A stretch of 64,000 nucleotides of DNA from Anaeroplasmataceae bacterium (GTDB lineage Bacteria; Bacillota_I; Bacilli_A; Acholeplasmatales; Anaeroplasmataceae). The translations under genes and the position numbers were made by a program. The notes under the pieces are model-generated. The model searched no databases. It was given only the letters and a program-made list of their open reading frames with translations, and was not told where the DNA came from. The DNA lies in the NCBI GenBank assembly GCA_029057785.1, contig JAIDZC010000038.1, positions 45,932-109,931 on the forward strand, read 5' to 3'. Positions 3,869 to 54,975 of the stretch are shown piece by piece. Position 1 is the stretch's first letter, and every line of letters starts with the position of its first letter.

Positions 3869-3943
3869 AGGTAGAATGTCTATCTGTGCAACAAAACTAA
3901 AGATATTCTACCTTGTATTCATTAAATGTTTCGGCATTTAATG
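3869..3943 (+). other. Two stem-loops in the gap between the giant surface genes
   Basis: An 8-bp stem AGGTAGAA/TTCTACCT (3869-3876 with 3906-3913), continued by an inner TATCT/AGATA stem, is followed directly by a perfect 9-bp hairpin CATTAAATG/CATTTAATG (3920-3928 with 3935-3943, loop TTTCGG). There is no clean T-tract, so this is either an attenuating or processing element or a weak terminator in front of the next gene. Confidence 0.45.
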
Positions 3944-3973
3944 AGATATCTTTTAAAATTGGTGGAGGAAATT

Positions 3974-6900
3974 ATGAAAAAAATAAAAGGAATTAAAAAA
4001 ATATTAATAATGGTTCTACTGAGTGTTGCCTTGGTCTTTACAATTGGTGGATTTAAAAACACCTTCCAAGCACAAGCTGCAGGAGAAACATGTACATATA
4101 CTTATGCTGCTTACTCAAAAGAAGGCTATGAGACTTTACAAAACGCTAGAATTATAGATGAGGATGGCGATTGTTCTACTACAATTGATGACTTAAAGGC
4201 TTTGATAGCAACTTACGAGGCGTTAAAGACTACCGGTTCGGAAGGTAATAAGAAAAAGAAGTTCTGGACTGATGGTGATGGTAAAAGATTTAGAGGATAT
4301 ATTGACATTCCACAACTCCCTGATGGAAGTTATAATGAAGATGATGAAAATATAGACTGGGATACTATAATTCCTCGTGGTGATGGAACAAATGAAGGCA
4401 TATATAATGCATTAAAGGCAGAATTAGCTGCTTGGGAAGCAAAGAACCCACCTCTAACTGCTATTACTCCTGGACAAGAGATAGTAGTAGAAATCTATGC
4501 TGAACTTTCTACTAGTGGTCAAATTCGTGCGGTTGCTGCAACATTGGATTTAGAAGGAGCTATTGATTCTACAGCTGGTATAACTCCTTATTACAATAAA
4601 ACAGAAACTGCAAATGGAGCTACTACAACTTTACAAGGTATAAGTTCTACTAGTCCTACAATTGGTTGGCAGTATTCTGCAGCAACAGGAAAAGCTGCAG
4701 CAGCAGGTAAGGTTTTTGTAGGTGCATTTGGTGTTACTACATCCTCAACAGGTTCAGGATTTACAGTCACTCTTGCTGATGCTGCTACAAATAACAACTC
4801 TGGTAAGACATTGTTTATCCCACATGCAACTGGTGAGCAAGTAAACGACTCTTTTAATACACCTTCTAAAAACAGTAGATTCCTAGATGAGCCATTAGAG
4901 CTCGCAGGAGCTACAATTTCTGATGATACATCTTTAATGGTATTGACTGTGGATGGGAAATCTATATTAACTGGAACTGGTCCTCAGTATGCTGCTTCTG
5001 ATGAAATCACAGGAAATAAAGCCGCTGTCTTTGCTCAAGTTAAAGATAATGGTACAATTGAAAATACGGGATATGTTTATAAAACAAATCCAACATTACC
5101 TGCAACCGGAACTGCTAATGCACCTTCTGGAAGTACTGGTACAGTGTCTATTGCTGCTGGAAACTTTGACGTTGATATGTCAGGTGTTTCTGCAGGTGAT
5201 AGCGTATGGGTAGTATTTAGAGCAATTGCTTCTGATACAGTTGCAAAGAAATGGTACTCCGTACAGGTAACAAAAGCAAAAGATACAAATTGTGATCTTG
5301 AGGCTGTAGAAATTAAGGCTACAGTAAGTGGTACAAGTACACCTTTATTGACTGAAACTTCATCCCTTACTAGTCAAACAGAATTTAATGTTTACTATCC
5401 AAAGGGAACGACAACTTCTAATAGCTTTACTATAAAGCCAACATTTACGGCTCCTAAGACTGCAACACTTAATGGTGCTACAGCTACATCAAATGCTGTT
5501 ACACCATTAACGTCTATCTCTAATGGTAGTGTTGTAACTATTGTCGTAAAAGCTCAAGATACTTCAAAAACAAAAACATATAAATTTACTTTCTATGAAG
5601 CAGATACTAAGCCTATTAGTGTTACTGGTTATTCTGGACCTAGTTCAAATGTACAGTCTCAAACAGGTGAGTATGCTACAGCTTCTAAGAAGTTTACCTT
5701 AAATAATATGGCTTTAGGCCGTGATGGCTTCTGGTTAAATATAGTTTTACCAACAAACGCTTCAGCAGAATTATTTGATACAAACAAGACAACAAGTCTT
5801 GGAACGATAACTTCTGGTACAAATACTTCAACTATAAGTTATCCTACTACTGCAAATGATGCTGCAAGTACAAAAACTGTATGGATAAAGGTTACAAACA
5901 ATGGCTATACAGATTGGTATGAAGTAGAAGTAAATAGACCAAAAGCTGATAATGATAAATCAGGTGTAACTATTACAGCAATGGGATATGTTGATGCGAA
6001 TAATGCAAATCAAACATATACATTGCCTAGTGCACTTCCAACAAATAATTCTACGAACATTACAAATACTCCGAAGTTGACTTATAACTCTAAGACTGCT
6101 TCCTTTGTAATTAATGTTCCATCAGGTTCTAAGACTAAGATTTTAAATGCATCAGGTGTTGATATTACAGGACAAACTCAGACATTAACTTTAGATGCTG
6201 GGAAGACCAACCTTCAAAAAACATTTAATTTCTATGTTCAAACAGAATATGATAGAACACAATCACAGCCACAGAGCAATGGTACGCAATATACAATTGT
6301 AATTGAAGAAGAGCCAGCAAATGGAACTAAGACTCTAGATAAACTAGAGGTTAAGAATTCTTCTGGTGCAACTCTTCCTAAGCCTGCTCCAACTATGAGC
6401 GGTGGCGTTACGATTTATAATTATGACATTGATACTGATTTGAATGGTAATACATTTACTGTTGATTTAGCATGGAGCCCTGCAACAACTAAGGCATATG
6501 TTGGTAAAACTGTAAATCCATCAACTGAATACAATGCATCAACAACATATGATGTTGGCGATACTGTATACGTTAGACTTGTAGCAGAAGATGAAACAGT
6601 CTCAGAATATCGTATTGTGACTACTAAGGCAAAGAGCTCAAACAATAAGATTATAAGTATTATGCTAGAATATGAAGCAGAAGATGGTTCTAAGGTTACT
6701 GTTTTCCCGGCTTCAGCATTTAATCAAGGAACTACTACCTATAATACTAATCAAGTTTCATCACTTACTGTACCTTATTCAGTAAAGAGTGTTAACTATA
6801 CAGTAGTATTAGACGATGCTAAGTCATCTTTAAGTGTTGGTGGTGTCAATAATAACCAATCCAATATAACAACTAGAACAGGAACATATACATTATCTTC

Positions 6901-9900
6901 AACACTAAATAATCTGTGTATCGTCTATGCTACTGCTGAAAATGGAACAAGAGGTACACAATATACAATCACTATTTATCGTCAAACTGCTAAGTCAGGT
7001 AATTATATTGAATCTATTTCTATTGGTGGAGTAGATTGTACTGTTGCTAATGCAAATTACTTTAAAGATGGAATTCCATTTAATTTGAATCAGAGAGGGG
7101 CATCATATCATTTATATTTGCCATGTACTCAATCTTTAAATGGAGTAGAATTCACAATAAGTGATGGAGCAACAGCAACATGGACTGCTGCACTTTCTTC
7201 TGGTAATACTTTAACCTTCCCATTTGTAAGTAATGTTACTCATAATCTGAATTATACATTTACAATTAGAGTTGTTTCTGAACAGCAAAGAATAGACAAT
7301 CCTACTAATCCACAGAGCAATACATATACATTCAATGTACATGTAGCTGATCAAGATCATTCTCTTACAGATTTAGAATTACAGGATTCATCTGGCAATA
7401 TAGTTCCTAGTACATCTAATGTTTATTTAGATCTTACAAATATTGCTTCATATAGTAATCAGAATACTCCATTTGAAGTTCCATATGAAGTGGATAGTAT
7501 TGTGGTTGATGCTAAAAATACAAAACCTTCATTCCATGGTAAGATAAATGTAGAATATGGTGGAAATAGTAATGCACTTAATGCTGGTGCAACAAAGAAG
7601 GTTACAATTACTGTAACATCTGAAATGGCTGCTCTTGATACATCACGTACAGATTTAATTACAACATATACCTTATATGTAAGACGTAAAGATTGTGATC
7701 ACGATCAAACCTTAAAGACACTTACTGTTTCTATTGATGGAACTCCTGTTGGTGTTGCACTAGAGAATAATAAATATACATATGTTATTGATAGTTTAAC
7801 AGCAGGTGATACTGTAGACATTCAAGCTACTGTAAATGATTCATCTTCAACGATTACTGGTCAAACAGGACAACATACTATCACTGGATTACTTGATTAT
7901 ACAGGTAAGGATTCTACAAAGAGAGAATTGACATATCATATCTATGTATCTTGTAAGTGTGGAACTAAGACAGCTCAAGATTATGTAATCAAATTACAGA
8001 CAGATGAATATAAACCAGATACAACTCCTGGTGCAATTACTGCAATTACTGCAGAAACTAAAGAATCAGGTGGTTTGAATCCATCATATTCAACAGGGAC
8101 TACTAGTTATGAAGTAAATCTATCAAATAAAGATGGTGATGACTATGTTAAGTTTACAATTACTAAAGCCAATCCTTTATCATCACTACATTTTAGTATA
8201 GATGGCCAAGTTCAATCTCCTGTTTCAAAGGATGCTACTCAAATCTTTACAGTTTCTAATATTGCTTTAGCTTCTTCAAAAGAAATTAAAGTATGGACTG
8301 TTGCAGAAGATGGAACTACACTTGGAACAGTTTACACAATTACTATAAAGCGTGCAGAAGCTGCTAGTACAGCTAATGAAGCTACTATGATTTATTATAA
8401 TGGAACAAACCAAGTGCCAAACTTTAATAAGTCAAGTGGTGGACCTTATACTATTAATTTAGGAAATCAAAAAGAAATTTATTTCACAGTTGATTTAACT
8501 GGCGTTAAGAATGCAACCGTTAAGCAAAATGTTCATGATAGTTATGCAAATCGTTATCAATTTGCTGATGGCGTATTTACTGAAACCTTTACAATTATTG
8601 TAAAAGCTGAAAGTGGAGATGAAAAGAACTATAACATCATCGTAAATCGTGATGGTGATAAGGTACTTGATGGTTTAACTGCTACAATTGATTCAGATTC
8701 TACAGATAAATTAACACCTACGTTCAGTGTGGCTACACTAAAATATAAGGTTACTTTAACTTCTACACAAAAGAGTGTTACATTAACTTACGTACCAAAG
8801 GCTAACAATGGTGCTACTACAGTATCTTTCATTGATCCTAGTGGTACTCCAATTGCTTTACCTGCTGGAACTACGATGTATACTATTTCTAATATAATGC
8901 CTACATTTAATGCTGCTGGTGTAGATACACCATTAGTATATAAGGTTCGTGTTACTGCAGTAAGTGGTGCATACGAAGATTATGTAATAGAAATTAGTAA
9001 GGAAAGAGGTAGTGACACTGTATATATTGATTCATATACATATAAGGAAAATACTACTGATGCTGCTGAAAAGCCATTAGATGGTTTAAGTCCTGCAGTT
9101 ACTACTTATAGTTATCGTGTTGATAGAAATACTTTATATTTCAATCCAACAATTACATTAAATGATCCAAATGGTAAGGTTGTTTGGCCAACTAATAGAT
9201 CAATGATTGCTGGTCAAAGAAATGCTATGACAGTAAAGGTTATCCCAGCAAGTGGTGTTGGAAGCAAACCAGATGGTTCAGATGATGAATCAAACGCTGT
9301 TTATTATACATTCAATGTATATCCTTGTGATATTACATATGAGATTGATGATATCTTTGCATTATTAAGTGATCAAAGTGCTAATCTATTAGATAAGGAT
9401 GAAATAACTTATATCGATTATAGAAATAATGTTTTAGAAATCACAGTTCCATATGGTAAATCACCACAATTGGATACATATTTAGATATTAAATCTACTG
9501 CTGACAACTATACTATCTTCTTAAATGGCAATCCTATGACTAGTGCTAAACAAAGTCTAACGGTTGGAAGAAATGAATTTAAGATTCAAATTAAGAGTGA
9601 TTATGCTACAGCATATGATAAGGTAAATACAACTCCTATCACAGGATATAAATCTAATGTTATAACTGTAATTATTAATCGTGATACACAAAATGATGAT
9701 GCAACACTTAAAGATTTATGGGTAACTTATATAGATGCTAATGGTCAAGAACAAACTATTCATTGTTCTACATTACCTGGTAATGATACATTTGCCGTTC
9801 CATATCTTGGTGATGGTGTAACAGTTGTATCTGTTGGTGCAACTCCAAATGCTCAAACATCAACTGTTTCTGGAACAGGTACTATATCCTTATCTGGAAC

Positions 9901-11719
9901 AGGTACTACAGGACAGACCTTTAACATTTCTGTAACTTGTACAGCTGAATCTGGTAAGAAGATAACATATCCTATTACAATTGCTCGTGGTGCTATTGAT
10001 TTCGACAAGGATAATTCTATTTTGGAAATCATTGTAGAAGCTGATGGAAAAACTTATCTTGCCCAACCTGATTCAAATCCACAAACTAACTTCGATAAGG
10101 ATGTATTTGATTATGGTGTATTTAAGATTCCATTCTCAGCTAAAGACTACAAGATTACTGTAGTAAGACCAGATGGTACATATTCAACTACTTGGATTGA
10201 TGGCTCACCTCGTACATCTAACACATTAACTACTACAATCACATCTGCAATGAGAGGCGGTAGTAAGGATGTTGTTGTATATTGTGTTGCTAAAGATCCA
10301 GAAGTAGGCAAAGGTAATGAATATACAATTCATTTAGAATTTGAATCAGCATCTACTGATTCAACACTATCTAACTTAAAGGCTGATGGTACTACAGTTC
10401 CTGGATTTAGTCCAAATATAACTGAGTATACACTACCTTCAAGACCAAATACTACAGAAGTTATTGATATTGAATATGTGACAACTGATCCAAAAGCTAA
10501 GGTTTCTGGTGATATCGGTAGACAAGCATTGAAGCAAGGATTGAATACATTTGCAGTAACAGTTACTGCAGAAGATGGTTCATCTACAACTTATAAGATT
10601 AATGTTATTAGAGATTATCCATTACCTTATTTAACTGATTTAGGTGCTATTGGTGAAAAATTATTAGATGCTAACTATAAGACAACTACATTTGATAAGG
10701 AAGTTTATACTTATACAACAATTGTAAGCTATATGACTTTATATGCAACAATCAAAGCTGAAGTTGATAATCCTGATTTCGTTGTTTCTTGTAGTAATTC
10801 AACTCTAAATTCAAAGACTGATTTAGTAAGAATGTTTGATGTTAATCTAGCTGAAGGCAAGAATGAATTTACATTAACTGTAACTTCTAAGGAAGGTAAA
10901 ACAGTAGAGTATACTTTAATCATTAAGCGTCGTGGATTAGCTTCTACAAATACTGAAGTTGAATTCATTGATATTCTTCAAATTCCAGAATTCAAGGAAG
11001 CTTATACAGATGATGAAAGATATTATTCTTATGAAGTTCCAAATGGAATTAAGACATTAGATGTTAAGGTTACTCCAGCTCAAGGTCCAACTGAGGATGG
11101 AGATGGTGCTACTTTCAAGATTATCAATGGTAGAGAAAGTGGAGTATTAACTGATCAAAATGTTACCTTAAGAGTTGGTAAGAATACTTTAGTAATTTTA
11201 ATCATTGCTGAAGATGGAGAATCTACTCGTGCAATCGTAGTAGAAGTTACAAGAGCTCCTATGACCTTCTCTGTAGATACAGAAGCTTATTCTGAATATA
11301 CATGTGAAAAGAAGGAAAATGGTGAGTATGCTTACAAGATTAATTTGGTTGATAAGAGAGCTGCTGATATCCAAGATTATACTAAGTATATCGTATTTGA
11401 TGAAGAGTACTATGACTCTACAAATCAATACGTTGAAAAGCCTGAAGTAACAGTTATTTCTGATACTTCAAATAGAATGTGTACAGAAGTAATCGTACGT
11501 ATCTATGATGGCGATGAAGAAATCTTTGTTACCTTCGAGCTTGAATCAAAGGCATTACAGGGTGGAAACACAATTCCTGAAATTTTACAAATCATTATGC
11601 CTTGGATTTTACTTGCAATTGCAATTATCATCTTAATTATTATCTTAATTTGTGTTAATAGAGATAAGTTCGGTGCTATTAACAAGAAAAGAAAAAAAGA
11701 TGACGAACAAGAAGCATAA
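3974..11719 (+). CDS. Giant membrane-anchored cadherin-like repeat surface protein (2581 aa)
   Basis: I chose the ATG at 3974, not the upstream in-frame ATG at 3926, because GGTGGAGG sits 6 bases before it and it gives a proper signal peptide (MKKIKGIKKI, a hydrophobic core, then QAQA at about 33-36). Residues 61-75 (DEDGDCSTTIDDLKA) resemble a dockerin/EF-hand calcium loop. The body is about 18 tandem beta-sandwich modules of the cadherin-like (PF12733-type) kind, each ending in a strand such as YTITIKR, YKINVIR, YTLIIKR or YNIIVNR. Near the C terminus a transmembrane helix (about 2532-2560, WILLAIAIIILIIILICV) is followed by a Lys/Arg-rich cytosolic tail. The protein therefore projects outward from the membrane. 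It lies 14 bp before the EAL gene with which it is probably co-transcribed. Likely role is adhesion or surface structure; the ligand is unknown. Confidence 0.85.
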   Translation: MKKIKGIKKILIMVLLSVALVFTIGGFKNTFQAQAAGETCTYTYAAYSKEGYETLQNARIIDEDGDCSTTIDDLKALIATYEALKTTGSEGNKKKKFWTDGDGKRFRGYIDIPQLPDGSYNEDDENIDWDTIIPRGDGTNEGIYNALKAELAAWEAKNPPLTAITPGQEIVVEIYAELSTSGQIRAVAATLDLEGAIDSTAGITPYYNKTETANGATTTLQGISSTSPTIGWQYSAATGKAAAAGKVFVGAFGVTTSSTGSGFTVTLADAATNNNSGKTLFIPHATGEQVNDSFNTPSKNSRFLDEPLELAGATISDDTSLMVLTVDGKSILTGTGPQYAASDEITGNKAAVFAQVKDNGTIENTGYVYKTNPTLPATGTANAPSGSTGTVSIAAGNFDVDMSGVSAGDSVWVVFRAIASDTVAKKWYSVQVTKAKDTNCDLEAVEIKATVSGTSTPLLTETSSLTSQTEFNVYYPKGTTTSNSFTIKPTFTAPKTATLNGATATSNAVTPLTSISNGSVVTIVVKAQDTSKTKTYKFTFYEADTKPISVTGYSGPSSNVQSQTGEYATASKKFTLNNMALGRDGFWLNIVLPTNASAELFDTNKTTSLGTITSGTNTSTISYPTTANDAASTKTVWIKVTNNGYTDWYEVEVNRPKADNDKSGVTITAMGYVDANNANQTYTLPSALPTNNSTNITNTPKLTYNSKTASFVINVPSGSKTKILNASGVDITGQTQTLTLDAGKTNLQKTFNFYVQTEYDRTQSQPQSNGTQYTIVIEEEPANGTKTLDKLEVKNSSGATLPKPAPTMSGGVTIYNYDIDTDLNGNTFTVDLAWSPATTKAYVGKTVNPSTEYNASTTYDVGDTVYVRLVAEDETVSEYRIVTTKAKSSNNKIISIMLEYEAEDGSKVTVFPASAFNQGTTTYNTNQVSSLTVPYSVKSVNYTVVLDDAKSSLSVGGVNNNQSNITTRTGTYTLSSTLNNLCIVYATAENGTRGTQYTITIYRQTAKSGNYIESISIGGVDCTVANANYFKDGIPFNLNQRGASYHLYLPCTQSLNGVEFTISDGATATWTAALSSGNTLTFPFVSNVTHNLNYTFTIRVVSEQQRIDNPTNPQSNTYTFNVHVADQDHSLTDLELQDSSGNIVPSTSNVYLDLTNIASYSNQNTPFEVPYEVDSIVVDAKNTKPSFHGKINVEYGGNSNALNAGATKKVTITVTSEMAALDTSRTDLITTYTLYVRRKDCDHDQTLKTLTVSIDGTPVGVALENNKYTYVIDSLTAGDTVDIQATVNDSSSTITGQTGQHTITGLLDYTGKDSTKRELTYHIYVSCKCGTKTAQDYVIKLQTDEYKPDTTPGAITAITAETKESGGLNPSYSTGTTSYEVNLSNKDGDDYVKFTITKANPLSSLHFSIDGQVQSPVSKDATQIFTVSNIALASSKEIKVWTVAEDGTTLGTVYTITIKRAEAASTANEATMIYYNGTNQVPNFNKSSGGPYTINLGNQKEIYFTVDLTGVKNATVKQNVHDSYANRYQFADGVFTETFTIIVKAESGDEKNYNIIVNRDGDKVLDGLTATIDSDSTDKLTPTFSVATLKYKVTLTSTQKSVTLTYVPKANNGATTVSFIDPSGTPIALPAGTTMYTISNIMPTFNAAGVDTPLVYKVRVTAVSGAYEDYVIEISKERGSDTVYIDSYTYKENTTDAAEKPLDGLSPAVTTYSYRVDRNTLYFNPTITLNDPNGKVVWPTNRSMIAGQRNAMTVKVIPASGVGSKPDGSDDESNAVYYTFNVYPCDITYEIDDIFALLSDQSANLLDKDEITYIDYRNNVLEITVPYGKSPQLDTYLDIKSTADNYTIFLNGNPMTSAKQSLTVGRNEFKIQIKSDYATAYDKVNTTPITGYKSNVITVIINRDTQNDDATLKDLWVTYIDANGQEQTIHCSTLPGNDTFAVPYLGDGVTVVSVGATPNAQTSTVSGTGTISLSGTGTTGQTFNISVTCTAESGKKITYPITIARGAIDFDKDNSILEIIVEADGKTYLAQPDSNPQTNFDKDVFDYGVFKIPFSAKDYKITVVRPDGTYSTTWIDGSPRTSNTLTTTITSAMRGGSKDVVVYCVAKDPEVGKGNEYTIHLEFESASTDSTLSNLKADGTTVPGFSPNITEYTLPSRPNTTEVIDIEYVTTDPKAKVSGDIGRQALKQGLNTFAVTVTAEDGSSTTYKINVIRDYPLPYLTDLGAIGEKLLDANYKTTTFDKEVYTYTTIVSYMTLYATIKAEVDNPDFVVSCSNSTLNSKTDLVRMFDVNLAEGKNEFTLTVTSKEGKTVEYTLIIKRRGLASTNTEVEFIDILQIPEFKEAYTDDERYYSYEVPNGIKTLDVKVTPAQGPTEDGDGATFKIINGRESGVLTDQNVTLRVGKNTLVILIIAEDGESTRAIVVEVTRAPMTFSVDTEAYSEYTCEKKENGEYAYKINLVDKRAADIQDYTKYIVFDEEYYDSTNQYVEKPEVTVISDTSNRMCTEVIVRIYDGDEEIFVTFELESKALQGGNTIPEILQIIMPWILLAIAIIILIIILICVNRDKFGAINKKRKKDDEQEA

Positions 11720-15977: not shown

Positions 15978-18900
15978 ATGAAAAAAATTATGATTGGATT
16001 ATCCTTGATCGTTTTGATATTCCTTGTGGGTTGTAAGAAGAAAGTTGATCCAACCCCACCAGGACCAGGTCCAACACCAACAGTTGTTGAGGAGAGTATT
16101 TGTGTTACAAATCGAGCTGGTACTGTGATTGAATCCGATTCAGTTTATCAAAGTGATACGAGAACATACTCTCATCAAGAATTGTTTGTCTGGGTTATTT
16201 ATAGTGATAAATCTATGAAAAATATAACTCTTCATGCAACATTTTCGGATGTTTCCATCCTTGAACCAGGGGATGTAGTAGTAACTGTGTCCTATAAGGA
16301 ATTTACTACTACCTATACGGTTAAGGTTTTACCTAACGTAGTAAAGAGCATTTCTATAGATGAAACAAATTGTAAAATTTTATATCCAGTGGGTGCAATT
16401 TTTGATCCATCTGGATTAGTGGTTCGTGGAAGTCTTGCAGACGGACAAGAGATAACTCTAACAGAATATGATTTATCCTTGAAGGATGAGGATTTAACAC
16501 AGCCTTTATCAACGCCAGGAAAGAAGAACATTATTGTTTCTTATGGCGAAAGCATAACTGCAACATTTGAAATTATGGTATATGATCAAAGTTCTACAAA
16601 TAGTTATGTATATAAAATAGATTATTTAATGGATGAACTAAATCTAGATGAACAAGGCAACTATGAATTTACAACTTCCTATGAAGCAATGAATAACTCT
16701 GTTGCTAAAATCAAAGTGAATTCAACCATTTTAAAAACAAAAGAAGAAAATGGCAGTTCAGTAGAGCATACCTATAACACCGAAACTTACCATTCTTATA
16801 TCTCTATACCAACTACAGAAGGAATAGAAATTACTATCCCGTATCAAACGGATATCTTTATGGTAGTTGCAGATTTACATGAGACTACAGTTTCTTTTAA
16901 AAAGGATGGTCAAACCTATGAGGCTTTTGGTCATAAGAGTAATTATACCTCTATCTTGTATTGTAGATTGGAGGCAGGTACCTATCAGCTAATCTCTAGT
17001 AATGCATCTAATCGGTTATATAGTATTGCTTTTGAATCAAGTCGTGCAACCGCTAGTGGAGTGGAGATTGATACAACAGATGTGAAAAAAACCTATGCAA
17101 TAGGGGATACTTTAGATACTAGAGGATTAAAGGCATATTACATATGGGAAGATGGGGCGAAGTCGTTAGCCTCTATTAGCAATATTAGCTATCGTATTAC
17201 AGATGAAAATAACAAGAATGTTACAGTTTTTGAAAAAGAAGGAACATATACTGTTACTATCACTCTTGCTTCTTTCAGTGAGTCTTTTCGTGTTGAAGTT
17301 ACGGATAGCCGTAGTTTTACAGGAATTGAATTAGACACGACAAATGTGACCAAGGAATTTTATGGTACAACCTTTAATTTTGATAACTTAAAGGTCTATG
17401 GTATTGGAGCTACAGGTAGAGAATTATTAGTAGAAGGTACAGATTATCAAGTGACCTTATCTTATAATAATAAGGTGGTTTCAGGATTTTCAGAAGTGGG
17501 AACATACACTGTAACAATAACCTTTTTAGGTCCAAGCTGTGAAAATAATAAAAGCTTTTATACAGTAAAATTTATGAAGGAAGTATCTAGGATGTCTCTA
17601 GATACTTCTCTTGTAAAAAGCAATTATATTGTTGGAGAAAATTTAGATATTTCTAATTTAGGAGTTATATTAGAATATAAAGATAATACAACTGGTACAC
17701 TTTCTCTTTCTCAAATCAAAAGAGAACTTTTGAGAAATGGTGTAGTCGTAAATTCTTTATCCGAGGTTGGAGAGTATCAAGTAAAAATTATTTATGACAC
17801 TTTTGAGAGAACTTTCTCAATTTTTGTTTCAGCAGCAAGGCAATATCTAGGTCTTGAATTAGATACTACCAAAGTAGCAAAGACCTTCAATGGAACTCAA
17901 TTCAATAGCAATCAGTTAAAGGTTTATGGATTAGATACAGGCGGCAACAGAACAGAATTTTCTATGGGTGATTTGAAAATAGAGCTAACCTTTAATGGAG
18001 AAGAAGTAAGCGCCTTTTCTCTTTCAGGTACTTACGTTGTAAAGATAACCTACATTGGAAGCCTAGATATTCTTTCAAATACTGAGACCTATGAGGTAGA
18101 ATATACAGCTAAGCAAATTGAATTTGCATATTCTGGTCCCAATGTACCAATCGCTTCTTGGAAAGAAGATCTTCATTATCCTATAGACTATACGTCCTAT
18201 ATAAAAGTTCCTGATTCAACCTATGTTTTCTTAGGTTTTAGTGGAGATTTTGATGCTACAAATCCTTTTGTAAAGATTTATGTTGAAAAAAAGAAAACAG
18301 GTAGTGCCTGCATATATACTTATGTTACTCCTCGGTATGAATATATTTATTATGATACAGTAATGAATACTCCACAAGTACCTGCCTACCTTTTAAAGGA
18401 AAATGAGGTATTTGATCACTTTGAGCTTGAAGAGTCAAGAAGTAATGCAAATTATAAGCTTTATGTTGCAGTATGTGTCGAGCAAACGTTAGAACCTATC
18501 ATCTCTATCAGTTCTGTCCATACGGCAAGTATTACACTTCCAACTTATGAGAATGCTACTATACGTGGTGTAATTAAAGATAGTGATGGAAATACAAAGA
18601 CATTTTCTAATCCATCTCAAGAATTTACAAATCTTGATCCAAATCTGCAGTATACCATTTCTGGATCTATTGCAACAAGTAATGGTTCTTTAAAAATTGT
18701 GGAAACCACTTTTACTACAAATGTTGCATCTACATTATCTTCAATTACTGAGGACCAAGCAGTTCGACATCTTTCTGCAGGAAGCCTTGAAATAGATTGT
18801 GCCCCTTATCTCCAAGCAATACCTTATGGATATCAGTTTGTGGGCTTTCAATTAACAAATGAGGCTTTAGAGGTTGTTTCTGAAATTGCTTATACTCCCG

Positions 18901-20471
18901 GAATGGAAACTGCCTATTTTACCAATCTTGTTAACGACACAAAATACTATGTTCAATCCTGTTATAAGGAAGTAGGACCAGTTTCCTTTAGTTTAAGAGA
19001 AGAAAGTAAATTTACTTATAATTTCCGATTTGTAGGGTTCTGGATTATTTCCTATGGAGATGAACTATATCGAATTCGTATGCAATATCAGGGAGATACA
19101 TTATATACATGGTATGTCGGGGATTATAATTATTTAGATAATGTAGCGCTATGTCAATTTGTACTTCCTAATGAACTTAGAGATTATGTAGTAGTTGGAT
19201 GTGAAATACCTCTTTATAATATAACAGAAGATATTGATGTTGAAGTGATTTTAGTAAAAAAATCAGCAAGTCAAGAGTTGGTGGCTTTCTATGGTTTTCA
19301 ATATGTGCTTTTAGGCTATGAATTTGTTACTGCAGGGGCAACACCATCTTTTCCTGAAGCTCCAGAAACAGTAGATTGGGGAAAATACACCTATGAGTTT
19401 ACTTCTTGGAATGAAAATACAATGTTTATTGGAGACACATTCATCCAGGCATATAAGGCAGGATATAAATGTACAAATGAAACCGCCTTTAGCCTTGTAT
19501 ACCCTTATAAATTTTATATTTTCACAGATAAACTATATAGAGAGCGTGCCATTTATACTGGTTCAAAGTATTATGTAGATTATTATGAACGTATTTATTC
19601 TAGTACAGGTACAGATATTACAGATACTTTAACCTTTGTTCATACAAAAGGAACGCAAGGGGTAAATTGTGGAGATTATACTGGACTAAAGCCAGATACA
19701 GAGTATGTATTTAAAGGTTATTTAATCTATAATCTTTTAGACGGAAATGGAAATCAAACGAAAGAGTATAGCTATACCTTTAAGACAATGGCTTTAAATG
19801 CGACTAAAAATGTTACTATTTCTGTAAAAAGATCAACCATTTCAGCATATGGCCTACAGGTTTCTGCAAATAAAAATAATTTTAATACCTATGTATTCTA
19901 TTATGATCATTATATAGATGTTTTATATAATGATGAATATATAGAATGGGATTATTTTGATTTAGGAAAATTATCTAGTGTTGAAGAGATAAAAATATAT
20001 TATGCAGATCGAGAAGAATTAGAAGATCGTTCCTTGCTTGTTTATGTATATCCTTCTAAGTCTTTGACTTATCAGTTAAATGAGATAAGAGAAGTAGAAC
20101 TCGAATCCGTTTCAGTAGAGTATGGTTATGGACAATATGGATTAGAGTACGCAGATATTACGGTTAAGGGAAAGAATGTGGCTTATGCAAATATCAATCT
20201 TTTCTGCCCTGCAGATTATATTGAATTTGATGGTCAAGTACCAATTGGCATTGCGGTTGCAAGTTATTTAAAAACCGTATCCGATGATGAAGTTGTTTAT
20301 CGATGGAACGTTTTTTGGCCTATGGGATCTGATTACCCTTACGAATGTAGGAGAATGGATGTTAGTGATTTCTCTTATGAAGCAGCTGGAATATTCTATC
20401 ATGGATACTGTGAATTTGCAGGAGTGGAAGAAGGCAAATTAGTAGTAAACTACTCTGTCACCTTTTGGTAA
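15978..20471 (+). CDS. Large lipoprotein with many bacterial Ig-like domains (1497 aa)
   Basis: The N terminus is a lipoprotein signal with lipobox LVGC (Cys19), followed by Lys residues and a Pro/Gly/Thr-rich linker (about 23-36). The N-terminal half has repeated Big_3-type modules recognisable by ELDTTNVTKEF, LDTSLVKSNY and ELDTTKVAKTF openings and FSEVGTYTVTITF or LSEVGEYQVKIIY endings. The C-terminal half is different: beta-rich, very Tyr-rich, with fibronectin-type signatures such as LKPDTEYVFKGYL. No transmembrane helix or catalytic motif is visible. A GGAAGTGATATTCT leader precedes the ATG. It probably works with the preceding lipoprotein at the cell surface; the ligand is unknown. Confidence 0.8.
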   Translation: MKKIMIGLSLIVLIFLVGCKKKVDPTPPGPGPTPTVVEESICVTNRAGTVIESDSVYQSDTRTYSHQELFVWVIYSDKSMKNITLHATFSDVSILEPGDVVVTVSYKEFTTTYTVKVLPNVVKSISIDETNCKILYPVGAIFDPSGLVVRGSLADGQEITLTEYDLSLKDEDLTQPLSTPGKKNIIVSYGESITATFEIMVYDQSSTNSYVYKIDYLMDELNLDEQGNYEFTTSYEAMNNSVAKIKVNSTILKTKEENGSSVEHTYNTETYHSYISIPTTEGIEITIPYQTDIFMVVADLHETTVSFKKDGQTYEAFGHKSNYTSILYCRLEAGTYQLISSNASNRLYSIAFESSRATASGVEIDTTDVKKTYAIGDTLDTRGLKAYYIWEDGAKSLASISNISYRITDENNKNVTVFEKEGTYTVTITLASFSESFRVEVTDSRSFTGIELDTTNVTKEFYGTTFNFDNLKVYGIGATGRELLVEGTDYQVTLSYNNKVVSGFSEVGTYTVTITFLGPSCENNKSFYTVKFMKEVSRMSLDTSLVKSNYIVGENLDISNLGVILEYKDNTTGTLSLSQIKRELLRNGVVVNSLSEVGEYQVKIIYDTFERTFSIFVSAARQYLGLELDTTKVAKTFNGTQFNSNQLKVYGLDTGGNRTEFSMGDLKIELTFNGEEVSAFSLSGTYVVKITYIGSLDILSNTETYEVEYTAKQIEFAYSGPNVPIASWKEDLHYPIDYTSYIKVPDSTYVFLGFSGDFDATNPFVKIYVEKKKTGSACIYTYVTPRYEYIYYDTVMNTPQVPAYLLKENEVFDHFELEESRSNANYKLYVAVCVEQTLEPIISISSVHTASITLPTYENATIRGVIKDSDGNTKTFSNPSQEFTNLDPNLQYTISGSIATSNGSLKIVETTFTTNVASTLSSITEDQAVRHLSAGSLEIDCAPYLQAIPYGYQFVGFQLTNEALEVVSEIAYTPGMETAYFTNLVNDTKYYVQSCYKEVGPVSFSLREESKFTYNFRFVGFWIISYGDELYRIRMQYQGDTLYTWYVGDYNYLDNVALCQFVLPNELRDYVVVGCEIPLYNITEDIDVEVILVKKSASQELVAFYGFQYVLLGYEFVTAGATPSFPEAPETVDWGKYTYEFTSWNENTMFIGDTFIQAYKAGYKCTNETAFSLVYPYKFYIFTDKLYRERAIYTGSKYYVDYYERIYSSTGTDITDTLTFVHTKGTQGVNCGDYTGLKPDTEYVFKGYLIYNLLDGNGNQTKEYSYTFKTMALNATKNVTISVKRSTISAYGLQVSANKNNFNTYVFYYDHYIDVLYNDEYIEWDYFDLGKLSSVEEIKIYYADREELEDRSLLVYVYPSKSLTYQLNEIREVELESVSVEYGYGQYGLEYADITVKGKNVAYANINLFCPADYIEFDGQVPIGIAVASYLKTVSDDEVVYRWNVFWPMGSDYPYECRRMDVSDFSYEAAGIFYHGYCEFAGVEEGKLVVNYSVTFW

Positions 20472-43912: not shown

Positions 43913-44869
43913 ATGTGTACAGCAGTGAGCTATAAAACAAAGGATTTCTATTTTGGAAGAACGTTAGATTATGATTATTCCTATCATGAAGAAGTTGTCA
44001 TAACTCCAAGAGGATATTCTTTTAATTGGAAGAGTAATTATGCCATCATAGGTATGGCCTATGTTCAAAATAATTATCCCCTTTATTATGATGCCTGCAA
44101 TGAAAAAGGTCTTGCGATGGCAGGATTAAACTTTGTTGGGAATGCAGTCTATTTTGAAGAAAAGGTGGATAAAATTAATGTTGCTCAGTATGAATTTATT
44201 CCATATATCCTATCTACCTGTGCTACAGTTGCGGAAGCCAAAAAACTCCTTAAAGATATGAATATCACAAATAAGAGCTTCTCTAAGGAATTACCTACCT
44301 CCCAGCTCCACTATATGATTGCAGATGCTAAGGAGGCTATCACAGTAGAATCAGTTGCAGATGGATTAAAGGTTTATGATAATCCTGTAGGTGTTTTAAC
44401 GAATAACCCGCCTTTCCCATTTCAGTTATTGGAACTCAATCGCTATATGGCCTTAACTCCTGAAACACCTAAATCAACCTTTTGTAAGGAAATCCAGTTT
44501 AAGCCCTACAGTAGAGGTATGGGGGCTATTGGATTACCAGGAGATTTATCCTCAAGTTCTAGATTTGTAAGAGCAGCTTTTGTGAAGCTCAATTCTAAAT
44601 CCCTTGATACAGAAGAGGAAAGTGTAAGTCAGTTTTTTCATATTTTAGGCTCAGTAGATCAGCAAAGAGGCTGTTGTATATTAGAAAATGAGTCCTATGA
44701 GATTACAATTTATACCTCTTGTATGAATACAACTAAAGGAATCTATTATTACACTACTTATGATAATCATCAAATCACAGCGGTGAATCTACATCATGAA
44801 AATTTAAATGAGGATAAACTGATTCGTTATCCTTTAATTCTTTCACAAAGAATCTGTAATCAAAATTAA
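43913..44869 (+). CDS. cbh: Choloylglycine hydrolase family enzyme, probable bile salt hydrolase
   Basis: 318 residues, the usual BSH length. This is an Ntn hydrolase with catalytic Cys2, exposed after Met removal. The other catalytic residues align with characterised BSHs as I recall them: R16 and D19 (FGRTLDYDYS), N73 (AGLNFVGNAVY, the Asn form typical of BSH rather than penicillin V acylase), N164 (GVLTNNP), and R217 (SSSRFVRAAF). No signal peptide, so cytoplasmic. Expected to deconjugate glyco- or tauro-bile acids. This is the best niche indicator in the window; substrate preference cannot be read from sequence alone. Confidence 0.9.
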   Translation: MCTAVSYKTKDFYFGRTLDYDYSYHEEVVITPRGYSFNWKSNYAIIGMAYVQNNYPLYYDACNEKGLAMAGLNFVGNAVYFEEKVDKINVAQYEFIPYILSTCATVAEAKKLLKDMNITNKSFSKELPTSQLHYMIADAKEAITVESVADGLKVYDNPVGVLTNNPPFPFQLLELNRYMALTPETPKSTFCKEIQFKPYSRGMGAIGLPGDLSSSSRFVRAAFVKLNSKSLDTEEESVSQFFHILGSVDQQRGCCILENESYEITIYTSCMNTTKGIYYYTTYDNHQITAVNLHHENLNEDKLIRYPLILSQRICNQN

Positions 44870-51605: not shown

Positions 51606-51670
51606 TTATATGTCACTAAATTTCATTGGAAATTGTTTTATAATTGGAAAGAGAAAAGGATGTGAGGAAT

Positions 51671-52150
51671 ATGACAGAACAGGAGTTTTCTATAAAATAT
51701 CAAAAATATAGTCAGGAATTATATACAATTTGTTATGGATATACTAAGAATCCCTTTGACGCAGAAGATATTTTACAAGACGTGTTTTTGAAATATTTAA
51801 AATGCAAATATGTATTTACAGATGAATTACAGGAAAAATACTGGTTAATTCGCGTATGCATTAATGTTTGTAAGAACTATGTGAAATCATCCTATTACAT
51901 TAAGGTAACCCTTTCCCAAGAAATTTTAGAAGCTTATCCGGATAAAAGCTTAAAAAAAGAAACCGATGTTTTAGCACGAATTGTAAAGCATCTTCCAAAA
52001 AAGTATAAAGAGGTTATAATTCTATATTATTATAATTCTTTAAAAACAAATGAAATCGCTCATATCTTAAATATTTCTTTATCTGCAGTAAAGAAGCGTT
52101 TAGAAAGAGCACGGAATATCATTTTAGAAGAAATGGAGAAATATTTATGA
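51671..52150 (+). CDS. ECF-type RNA polymerase sigma factor
   Basis: The ATG at 51671 (after GTGAGGA) is preferred to an in-frame TTG at 51644. 159 residues, ECF size. Region 2 includes ELYTICYGYTKNPFDAEDIL and QDVFLKYLK; region 4 includes LPKKYKEVIILYYYNSLKTN and EIAHILNISLSAVKKRLERA, a clear helix-turn-helix. No region 3 and no extra domain. Its stop overlaps the next start as ATGA, the classic arrangement of an ECF sigma factor with its membrane anti-sigma factor; here the partner is a membrane-tethered serpin. Confidence 0.95.
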   Translation: MTEQEFSIKYQKYSQELYTICYGYTKNPFDAEDILQDVFLKYLKCKYVFTDELQEKYWLIRVCINVCKNYVKSSYYIKVTLSQEILEAYPDKSLKKETDVLARIVKHLPKKYKEVIILYYYNSLKTNEIAHILNISLSAVKKRLERARNIILEEMEKYL

Positions 52151-53580
52151 ATTTAGAGGATAAATTAAAAGAATTAAAAGAGGAAGTTCCTAAAGTGAAT
52201 TCCTCGTTAGAAAGTGAAATTTATTTAAAAAGTATAAAAAAGAAAACAGGTAGAAATCCTTTTTTCAATAAACTAACACTTTCCATAGCTGGAATAGTTT
52301 CAATTGTTTTGCTTCTTACGATTGGGCTAGTGACTTTTAGACAAGTAGAAAACAATAAAATGAATTCAGCAGTTCATTTATTGAAGAAAGTTACAGAACC
52401 AGATGATTTGGCAAATCCATCAGACTCTTACGTAGAGTTTTGTGATGCAGTCAATTTTTTCTCAGGTGAGCTTGCCTCTTTGGCTGTAGAAGAGCTTCCC
52501 TCATCTGAAAATACGGTTGTATCCCCAGTGTCTTTATTTAGTGCCTTGGCACTTGCGGTAGAATGTAGTGATGGTTCTTCAAGACAACAGCTCTTGGACG
52601 CTATGAGAATGAATTATGACACCTTGATTTTAAATTATGAAAAGCTATATCAAGAAATTAATCGTGTTGGACTACATGATGATTCATCCAAAACAAAATG
52701 TAAGCTTACCAATTCCATTTGGCTTGATGAAAATGTCACCTTTAAAGAAGTAGGATTAAACAACCTTGCCAATCATTATTATAGTTATTCTCATAGCCTA
52801 GATATGAAGAAAAAGGAATATGTGAATCGTTACATAAAAACTTTTATCAGTAAGCAAACAGATGGATTTTTAAAACCAGACTTTTCCATATCAGAAGATA
52901 CGATTTTCCTTTTGATGAACACCTTGTATTTAAAAGATGTTTGGCAATCCACAGGAAAAGAAATAAAATTAACAGATGCAAAATATGATTTTACCAATGC
53001 GGATGGAAGTAAAATAACTAAAAAACTTATGATGGGTAAGTATATTTTAGGTAAGGCTTATGAACAAGAAGAATATAGAGAGTTTTACACCTCCACATCA
53101 TCTGGATATAAAGTACATTTTATTGTTCCAAAGGAAGGATATGGAATAGACCAAATATTTACAAGTGAGGCAATTTCTGCTCTTTGCAAGCGAGAGTATG
53201 AAAAAAAAAATGAAGAAGCAAAGGAACGATATTTTACTCGTACTCTCTTTCCCGAATTTCAGGCAGAAAGTAGCCTACATTTAGAGGAGATTCTTACAAA
53301 GTTAGGTATATCAGATATCTTCCATATCGAAACATCTGACTTCTCTAATCTTTCAGATGGAAAACTCGTTTGTAATGGTGTAAGTCAATCTGCAAAGCTT
53401 GTTGTGAATCGTAAAGGAATAGAAGGTGGTGCAGTAACCTTCTTGGAAGGAGCAGGCGCTGCTGGTCCAAGTGAGGTAAAGGAAATCTTTTATGATTTTG
53501 TAGTTGATAAAAGCTTTGGCTATGTCATAACGAACTCTAAAGGAATCAATCTATTTAGCGGAATTATTCGTTATATTTAA
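52147..53580 (+). CDS. Transmembrane serpin, candidate anti-sigma factor
   Basis: 477 residues. Residues 1-42 are charged and, by the positive-inside rule (KSIKKKTGRNPFFNK), cytosolic. A single transmembrane helix lies at about 43-64 (LTLSIAGIVSIVLLLTIGLV), so the rest is outside. From about 90 to the end is a full serpin: NTVVSPVSLFSALALAVECS (helix B region), DGSSRQQLL, FLLMNTLYLKDVW, and near the C terminus the hinge and reactive loop NRKGIEGGAVTFLEGAGAAG (421-440) followed by FYDFVVDKSFGYVI and LFSGIIRYI. The hinge (EGGAVT) has small residues as in inhibitory serpins. It overlaps the sigma gene by 4 bp. The N-terminal 42 residues are in the position of an anti-sigma domain but show no recognisable zinc motif. 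Confidence 0.9.
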   Translation: MNLEDKLKELKEEVPKVNSSLESEIYLKSIKKKTGRNPFFNKLTLSIAGIVSIVLLLTIGLVTFRQVENNKMNSAVHLLKKVTEPDDLANPSDSYVEFCDAVNFFSGELASLAVEELPSSENTVVSPVSLFSALALAVECSDGSSRQQLLDAMRMNYDTLILNYEKLYQEINRVGLHDDSSKTKCKLTNSIWLDENVTFKEVGLNNLANHYYSYSHSLDMKKKEYVNRYIKTFISKQTDGFLKPDFSISEDTIFLLMNTLYLKDVWQSTGKEIKLTDAKYDFTNADGSKITKKLMMGKYILGKAYEQEEYREFYTSTSSGYKVHFIVPKEGYGIDQIFTSEAISALCKREYEKKNEEAKERYFTRTLFPEFQAESSLHLEEILTKLGISDIFHIETSDFSNLSDGKLVCNGVSQSAKLVVNRKGIEGGAVTFLEGAGAAGPSEVKEIFYDFVVDKSFGYVITNSKGINLFSGIIRYI

Positions 53581-53590
53581 TCATCATTTT

Positions 53591-53622
53591 ATGGCTACTT
53601 AAGAAGAGTAGCCATTTTTTTC
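53591..53622 (+). terminator. Intrinsic terminator of the sigma-serpin operon
   Basis: ATGGCTAC/GTAGCCAT (53591-53598 with 53608-53615) followed by seven T residues. Confidence 0.9.
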
Positions 53623-53719: not shown

Positions 53720-53998
53720 ATGAATAAACCAGAATTAGTAACAAGGATAGCAGATAGAACAAATTACACAAAAAAGCAAGTTGAAGAAATTACCGCAGCG
53801 CTATTTGATGTGATTACTGAAGCATTAATCAGTGGAGATAAGGCTGTAATTTCTGGCTTTGGCACATTTGAAGTTCATGAGCGTGCAAAAAAGACAGGTA
53901 GAAATCCTCAAACAGGAGAAGAAATATTGATTGAAGGCTCAAAGGCTCCTGTTTTTAAATCAGCAAAAGTATTTAAGGATGCAGTAAATAAAAGATGA
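53720..53998 (+). CDS. hup: HU-family DNA-binding protein
   Basis: The ATG at 53720 (MNKPELVTRIADRTN) has GTGGAGG upstream; an in-frame TTG at 53714 is too close to the ribosome site. 92 residues, HU size, with ALISGDKAVISGFGTFEVHE and AKKTGRNPQTGEEI (the DNA-wrapping arm with its Pro) and the C-terminal PVFKSAKVFKDAVN. Nucleoid protein that bends DNA. Its stop overlaps the next start (ATGA). Confidence 0.97.
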   Translation: MNKPELVTRIADRTNYTKKQVEEITAALFDVITEALISGDKAVISGFGTFEVHERAKKTGRNPQTGEEILIEGSKAPVFKSAKVFKDAVNKR

Positions 53999-54975
53999 TC
54001 AATCCATTTCAAGCTATTTTAGATCAAAATTGGAAACAACTAAATAGCTATTTAGACCATGGAAATGTCAATATAGTGGATACAAAGGGAATGTCACTCC
54101 TTTGTTATGCTATCAAGCTTCAGTCTAATGATGCTGTACAAATTTTACTTCGTGCCTATATTGATGTTGATTTGGCAGATAAAAAAGGAAATACTAGCTT
54201 TCATTATGCTGTTTTATATAATCGATTAAATTACCTTCGTGTTTTAATGACGACAAATGGAAATCCAATGCAAAAGAATAAGGATGGGCATACCCCCTTG
54301 TATCTTGCTTGTAGGTATCGCAAAGAAAAGATGATTGATTTATATTTAGAAAAGTATAAGTTAGATATGGGTGAAAAGGACATAAATGAAGAAACGATTT
54401 GTATGGCGTTTGTTCGTGCTAAGGCCCCTCTCCTTTTGAAAAAGTATGGTGGCTTTGAGGCATGGCTAGAGGAGACAAATTATATCGGAAATCCACCGCT
54501 CATAGTAGCAGCAGAACGAAATTCAATTGCTATGGTTAAATTCATCTTAGAATATCCAGTGTTTATCAATAGGAAAAATCATATGAATGAAACAGCTTTA
54601 TTCTATGCAGTTAGGAATGAAAATAAAGAATTGATTAATCTCTTATTAAGTTATGGTGCATTTTTGGATTTTAAAAACAAAAATGCTGAAACGATATATG
54701 ATATTGCATCCAACGAAATTAAAGAGTACATCGAAGAACGTAGAAGAGCTTATAAAATGACAACCTATCATAGAAGATATCCACTGCACTATGCAATATA
54801 TATGAATGATTCTAGACTCATAGAAAAAGCTATGAGTTTAAAGAATGTTAATTTGGTTGATTCTTATCATTTTACTCCCTTAAAGTTAGCTAAGCTTTAT
54901 CATAATAAACAAGCAATAGAGGGGATTAAAGCATTAGAAAGAGTTGCAAAAATTGCAACACTAGAAACAAAATGA
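53995..54975 (+). CDS. Ankyrin-repeat protein
   Basis: 326 residues, made of about eight ankyrin-like repeats: GMSLLCYAIKLQSNDAVQIL, GNTSFHYAVLYNRLNYLRVL, GHTPLYLACRYRKEKMIDLY, then GNPPLIVAAERNSIAMVKFI, ETALFYAVRNENKELINLLL and YPLHYAIYMNDSRLIEKA. The middle repeat around EETICMAFVRAKAPLLLKKY is degenerate. No signal peptide or membrane segment, so a cytosolic protein-binding scaffold with unknown partner. It begins within the HU stop codon, which makes its translation dependent on HU. Confidence 0.9.
   Translation: MINPFQAILDQNWKQLNSYLDHGNVNIVDTKGMSLLCYAIKLQSNDAVQILLRAYIDVDLADKKGNTSFHYAVLYNRLNYLRVLMTTNGNPMQKNKDGHTPLYLACRYRKEKMIDLYLEKYKLDMGEKDINEETICMAFVRAKAPLLLKKYGGFEAWLEETNYIGNPPLIVAAERNSIAMVKFILEYPVFINRKNHMNETALFYAVRNENKELINLLLSYGAFLDFKNKNAETIYDIASNEIKEYIEERRRAYKMTTYHRRYPLHYAIYMNDSRLIEKAMSLKNVNLVDSYHFTPLKLAKLYHNKQAIEGIKALERVAKIATLETK

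Follow-up and report, generated by a model that had tools for sequence, protein, structure and literature searches.

The window, by which we mean the whole 64,000-nucleotide stretch of DNA analysed, encodes an ECF sigma factor and, in the overlapping downstream gene, a membrane-spanning serpin that very probably acts as its anti-sigma factor. This assignment is based on comparison of sequences: the pair is conserved, its members are present or absent jointly, the arrangement recurs in a second ECF lineage, and sister sigma factors are followed by membrane proteins bearing other ectodomains on similar stubs, all of which supported the sigma/anti-sigma relationship originally predicted for the two genes. 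The simplest reading, drawn by analogy, is of an anti-sigma factor with the serpin as its sensor and main product, in which RsiV-like logic would be applied to a suicide inhibitor.

The sigma gene (51671-52150, + strand) starts with ATG at 51671 and stops at 52148-52150; translation might instead begin at an in-frame TTG (51644). Its 159-residue product, assigned from Pfam and its position on the sigma tree, matched PF04542 (E 9.5e-10) and PF08281 (E 9.8e-14), both over the cut-off, and contains sigma-70 regions 2 and 4 only, the composition of an ECF sigma factor. The serpin gene (52147-53580, + strand; 477 residues) shares with it the four bases ATGA, an overlap that the original prediction had given correctly. 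Upstream lies a predicted ECF promoter (51611-51640, + strand) with the clade-wide motif and spacing, TGTCAC (51611-51616) and GTTTTA (51635-51640) separated by 18 bases, and a terminator-like hairpin (53591-53615, + strand) that would close a two-gene operon follows the serpin gene. With this putative promoter and hairpin at its ends, the locus looks like a closed operon.

Hydropathy, the PF00079 match and structural modelling bore out the expected layout of a short N-terminus, one transmembrane helix and a serpin, the cytosolic and outer sides being predicted. All parts are encoded on the + strand. Residues 1-42 (52147-52272) form a stub predicted to be cytosolic and sigma-binding from its conservation, its weak similarity to the stubs of sister partners and its modelled helices. 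The transmembrane helix spans about residues 45-63 (52279-52335) by hydropathy and falls within a helix of residues 39-69 in the AlphaFold2 model. The serpin domain (PF00079, E 1.4e-43) covers residues 102-472 (52450-53562) and includes the hinge P15-P8, GIEGGAVT (residues 424-431; 53416-53439), and the reactive centre loop (residues 432-446; 53440-53484), in which P1, counted from P15, is about Ala438. AlphaFold2 modelling of the 477-residue protein (45 rows) gave a serpin fold with a mean pLDDT of 81, and the first Foldseek match of the model was tengpin in its native state (2pee); Pfam, AlphaFold2 and Foldseek thus all placed the protein in the serpin superfamily. Loop residues 430-441 had pLDDT under 50, and the stub was modelled with low confidence as helices at 3-12 and 19-31 (block pLDDT 43-64). 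As had been claimed, the N-terminus showed no known anti-sigma motif: searches of residues 1-66 against Pfam and PDB sequences matched no anti-sigma domain.

The association of this serpin type with ECF genes was assessed in 128 distinct full-length serpin frames from the collected loci, 9 of which span the membrane internally; among the 119 others, the 110 with at least 500 bases of upstream sequence served for comparison. After correction by eye, an ECF gene lay directly upstream of all 9 membrane-spanning serpins and of none of the 110 others (9/9 vs 0/110). The rule before correction returned 8/8 vs 1/111 (Fisher p 1e-11, only indicative since the rows are related and represent two ECF lineages), and the lone exception was the membrane-spanning serpin of G007, misfiled owing to a Met in its helix. 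Six of the 110 had an ECF gene within 2 kb, none directly upstream.

Within the genus, serpins were found in 8 of 11 genomes and the overlapping sigma/serpin pair in 6 (G000, G001, G002, G005, G006 and G007, counting G002, whose sigma gene is truncated by the contig end). The pair is accessory: searches of G004, G008, G009 and G010 found neither the sigma factor nor the membrane serpin. G010 does have a lipoprotein-type serpin, and in G004 a distant ECF gene is paired with a partner of its own. In both, the YgjV and HU genes that flank the pair elsewhere adjoin each other without it; other genes stand before HU in G008 and G009. At the same genomic place, G003 (C151; L010/L229) retains the promoter motif and a single short frame with a sigma-like start and a serpin-like end, which looks like a deletion product. 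A second serpin of G003 (L008) is cut by the contig end, leaving its N-terminus uncovered. Elsewhere in the family, G111, which belongs to a different genus, has a pair that overlaps by 8 bases, so that at least 7 of 160 genomes of the order carry one; the names of near relatives were mostly Anaeroplasmataceae or Mollicutes. The membrane partner is thus co-encoded and co-inherited with the sigma factor, as in ECF sigma/anti-sigma pairs generally. Co-occurrence of ECF genes and transmembrane serpins across genomes, suggested as a check, was observed: the pair is conserved, genomes of the genus have both partners or neither, and a second ECF lineage shows the same pairing, so that uniqueness to one genome was refuted.

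That second lineage was seen in a scan of the genome collection from which the best 80 of 155 relatives were taken. At one locus (L128) a single base separates an ECF gene from the gene after it, which encodes a membrane-spanning serpin carrying a different stub. When 224 genomes from one other family were searched, 25 had a match, and two of these showed the arrangement: G654, with the L128 serpin again (L178), and G645, another species (L183); a class-wide search of 395 genomes gave no further case among the matches listed. The sigma factors of the second lineage (L128/L178 and L183) fell far from the window clade on the sigma tree and were joined as a pair with 100/100 support. The promoter motif was not found within the stretch tested for this lineage, where the best candidate had 3 mismatches. 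On the serpin tree, the 15 membrane-spanning rows (the doubtful P0048 included) require four label changes, of which well-supported branches force at least two. P0048 was dropped from the argument as a relative, given its E value of 5e-4 and very long branch. Two other membrane-spanning serpins, P0022 and P0025, have a third kind of stub and are nested among lipoprotein-type serpins; they enter no pair count because their gene neighbours are not covered by the sequence at hand.

Close relatives of the window sigma factor were identified in six further genomes (G106, G124, G115, G148, G117 and G118; L033-L038), where the gene that follows encodes a single-pass membrane protein combining a short stub with a different ectodomain. 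Three of these six partners were searched against Pfam: two gave nothing, and one an MscL match below threshold. The sister sigma factors share the promoter motif of the window clade. On the sigma tree, six serpin-paired sigmas formed one clade (85/88) adjoining four of the sisters, with those of G118 and G148 branching outside this grouping. In the closest stubs the pattern P-x-x-(D/N)...IY recurs, about equally far from the membrane. When stubs were compared by hhalign, the score was 13.94, which none of 200 column shuffles reached (best 13.84), yet the hhalign probability was 1.85%, so the likeness is suggestive. A similar stub joined to different ectodomains suggests that the ectodomain is the sensor, and the sister pairs are as expected of sensors swapped on a similar stub. 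Among six membrane serpins of the genus, mean pairwise identity was 75% in the stub, 66% in the membrane helix, 42% in the stalk, 56% in the serpin core, 86% in the hinge (the highest of the seven regions), 44% in the reactive loop and 72% in the C-terminus; dN/dS was below 0.5 in every region for the four pairs computed.

A search for a shared promoter motif had been suggested as a check, and one was found across the clade: TGTCAC-N18-GTTTTA stood upstream of each of the 12 sigma genes examined, exactly in 11 and with one mismatch in L038, and of none of 25 other ECF genes used as controls. The test left out G002, in which the contig ends inside the sigma gene, and the second copy in G115. 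A motif upstream of the sigma gene and shared by the clade is the arrangement of an autoregulated ECF operon. Within the genus, single exact sites occurred at the sigma gene in G000, G001, G005, G006 and G007, with none elsewhere in G000. G003 had two, one at the remnant and one at C21:5442-5472 (L195/L204) that precedes no sigma gene, lies in no long frame and has only a 70-residue frame downstream; this site lies in a genome whose own sigma gene is a remnant. G004 had one, antisense inside a long frame, and the remaining genus genomes had none; the reversed control gave one. With up to 1 of the 14 letters wrong, 22 sites were found in the 11 genomes, against 7 in the reversed control. Six were at the sigma gene or its remnant. 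All but one of the other 16 were inside or antisense to reading frames longer than 100 residues (for L216 and L217, a frame also starts 283 and 248 bases downstream, respectively), and the last was the unexplained L204. Since non-sigma sites lay nearly all within or across long frames, a wider regulon was rejected, weaker promoters being beyond the reach of this search, and the clearest predicted target is the sigma operon itself. It is the only clear target predicted in the genus, bar the one unexplained exact match in G003. With this operon as the only clear target, the serpin seems to serve as sensor and output alike.

Inhibitory serpins, when cut in the reactive loop, pass to a relaxed form with the protease attached, and each molecule is used once. 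From the pairing of the genes, their shared pattern of occurrence and the conservation of the stub, the 42-residue cytosolic stub probably tethers the sigma factor at the membrane. If the membrane serpin is such an inhibitor, an outside protease would cut the reactive loop, and the serpin would snap to its relaxed form with the protease attached. By analogy with RsiV, the stalk (residues 66-95) might thereby be exposed to a site-1 cut, after which an RseP/RasP-type protease would cut in the membrane and the stub would be degraded. The window genome encodes a RasP/RseP-type site-2 protease with HEGGH; in the stalk, inspection by eye found no conserved signal-peptidase-like site. The freed sigma factor would then bind TGTCAC-N18-GTTTTA, a role suggested by the motif, and yield more sigma factor and serpin. 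Because the serpin is single-use, a cell that linked its consumption to new synthesis would not run short of it at the surface. We hold with moderate confidence that this full loop operates, in which the serpin is the anti-sigma factor and a trapped protease frees a sigma factor that chiefly renews its own operon. More tentatively, and with the chances just short of even, the serpin may be a one-shot mechanical receptor, in which the stressed-to-relaxed snap, available once per molecule, carries a signal across the membrane, registering each protease hit and calling for a new serpin by way of a dedicated sigma factor whose regulon is nearly limited to one operon; such receptors would have arisen at least twice by joining of a serpin to an anti-sigma stub.

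The nearest known parallel, in the accessible parts of the reports, is SigV/RsiV of Bacillus subtilis and Clostridioides difficile. RsiV is likewise a single-pass anti-sigma factor, its ectodomain binds and inhibits the attacking enzyme lysozyme, and its operon is transcribed by its own sigma factor to give more inhibitor (PMC5014341); once bound to lysozyme, RsiV is cut by signal peptidase and RasP (PMC5014341, PMC6066255). RsiV is built of DUF4163/DUF3298 and DUF4179 regions and responds to lysozyme, whereas the window protein is a serpin, a single-use protease-trap fold; Pfam searches of the complete window protein, and of N-terminal segments from 13 proteins, matched neither DUF4179 nor DUF3298. 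The SigI/RsgI sets of Clostridium thermocellum and Acetivibrio cellulolyticus similarly comprise paralogous pairs with differing extracellular sensors, such as carbohydrate-binding modules, but are of SigI type and sense carbohydrates, and the accessible text mentions no serpin sensor (PMC3413522, PMC12484212). Class I anti-sigma domains are described as at least 50 residues long, with a mean of 101, and class II (CnrY-like) domains as under 50, with two helices gripping sigma2 and sigma4 (PMC7406223, accessible sections). The window protein, with about 42 residues before the membrane, is too short for class I; its length fits class II, and two helices, as in that class, are predicted at low confidence; a search of PDB sequences gave no CnrY-type match to the stub.

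It is unlikely, but the strongest of the alternatives, that the protein is a true anti-sigma factor with the serpin only as a regulated product, and that the stalk or transmembrane helix senses the trigger, some other envelope stress such as bile or membrane damage. Precedent for a serpin as product comes from six loci (L103, L104, L118, L121, L123 and L124) with the order ECF gene, separate membrane protein, lipoprotein-type serpin; they are the six counted above as having an ECF gene no more than 2 kb away, are labelled Clostridia, Eubacteriales, Firmicutes or Gallimonas, and probably have the serpin as the third gene of an ECF operon. Against it, the partners of sister sigmas in the same clade combine a similar stub with other ectodomains, which points to the ectodomain as sensor, and fusion to a serpin occurs in two ECF lineages. 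Least probable is a plain surface protease inhibitor co-transcribed with its sigma factor, the N-terminus serving as anchor only. Such a role would suit an N-terminus without a known anti-sigma motif, and membrane-anchored prokaryotic serpins are already noted as a class in the accessible part of a serpin phylogeny (PMC8233489), so that anchoring alone is not new. The stub is, however, better conserved than the serpin core in the six genus proteins, and 109 of the 110 other serpins start signal-type (by a crude hydropathy rule, with one unclear), which indicates that an anchor needs no conserved cytosolic stub.

We consider it improbable that the serpin domain, rather than inhibiting proteases, binds a ligand that alters the anti-sigma factor reversibly. 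The window hinge at P17-P9, RKGIEGGAV, does depart from the canonical inhibitory ExGTEAAAA at five of the eight fixed positions (P17, P14, P12, P11 and P9). Small residues are nevertheless kept at P12-P10, conservation peaks in the hinge, and the loop is variable as in inhibitors. The window GIEGGAVT also fits the consensus of its own group, GIEGAAVT (67-76, per position, of the 96 other serpins whose loop the search pattern found). Moreover, the accessible text on siropins describes gut serpins with Gly/Ala-rich hinges that inhibit proteases nonetheless (PMC5127057). The reactive loop contains many small residues, among them AGAAG in the window, and might be a target for an elastase-like protease or another that prefers small residues; siropins are reported there not to inhibit pancreatic elastase or subtilisin (PMC5127057). 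Siropins and miropin resemble the window serpin in fold, small-residue hinge and variable loop, but the accessible parts of these papers mention no link to a sigma factor (PMC5127057, PMC8233489).

Under the preferred reading, an anti-sigma factor with a serpin as its sensor, the irreversible refolding of a serpin would serve bacteria as a signal, and they could sense host or rival proteases directly at the surface. The RsiV principle that the inhibitor is the receptor would extend to proteases, the means by which a cell stocks a suicide inhibitor would be explained, and a ready protease biosensor would be at hand. The original prediction held that no anti-sigma factor with a serpin sensor had been described, and none was found in the accessible open-access literature.

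A wall-less lifestyle was considered as the reason for a surface serpin and rejected for the window genome, in which three transpeptidase matches were over the cut-off; peptidoglycan genes are reported in 40-60% of Anaeroplasmataceae genomes (PMC10868615, accessible text). Elsewhere in the window, a choloylglycine hydrolase family gene (43913-44869; PF02275, E 1e-98) is consistent with a gut bacterium. An ankyrin-repeat gene (53720-54975) overlaps its upstream HU gene by four bases, and the two adjoin in all 8 genus genomes searched. Two very large proteins of 2597 and 1497 residues (3926-11719 and 15978-20471) contain cadherin-like and Ig-like domains and are perhaps surface proteins.
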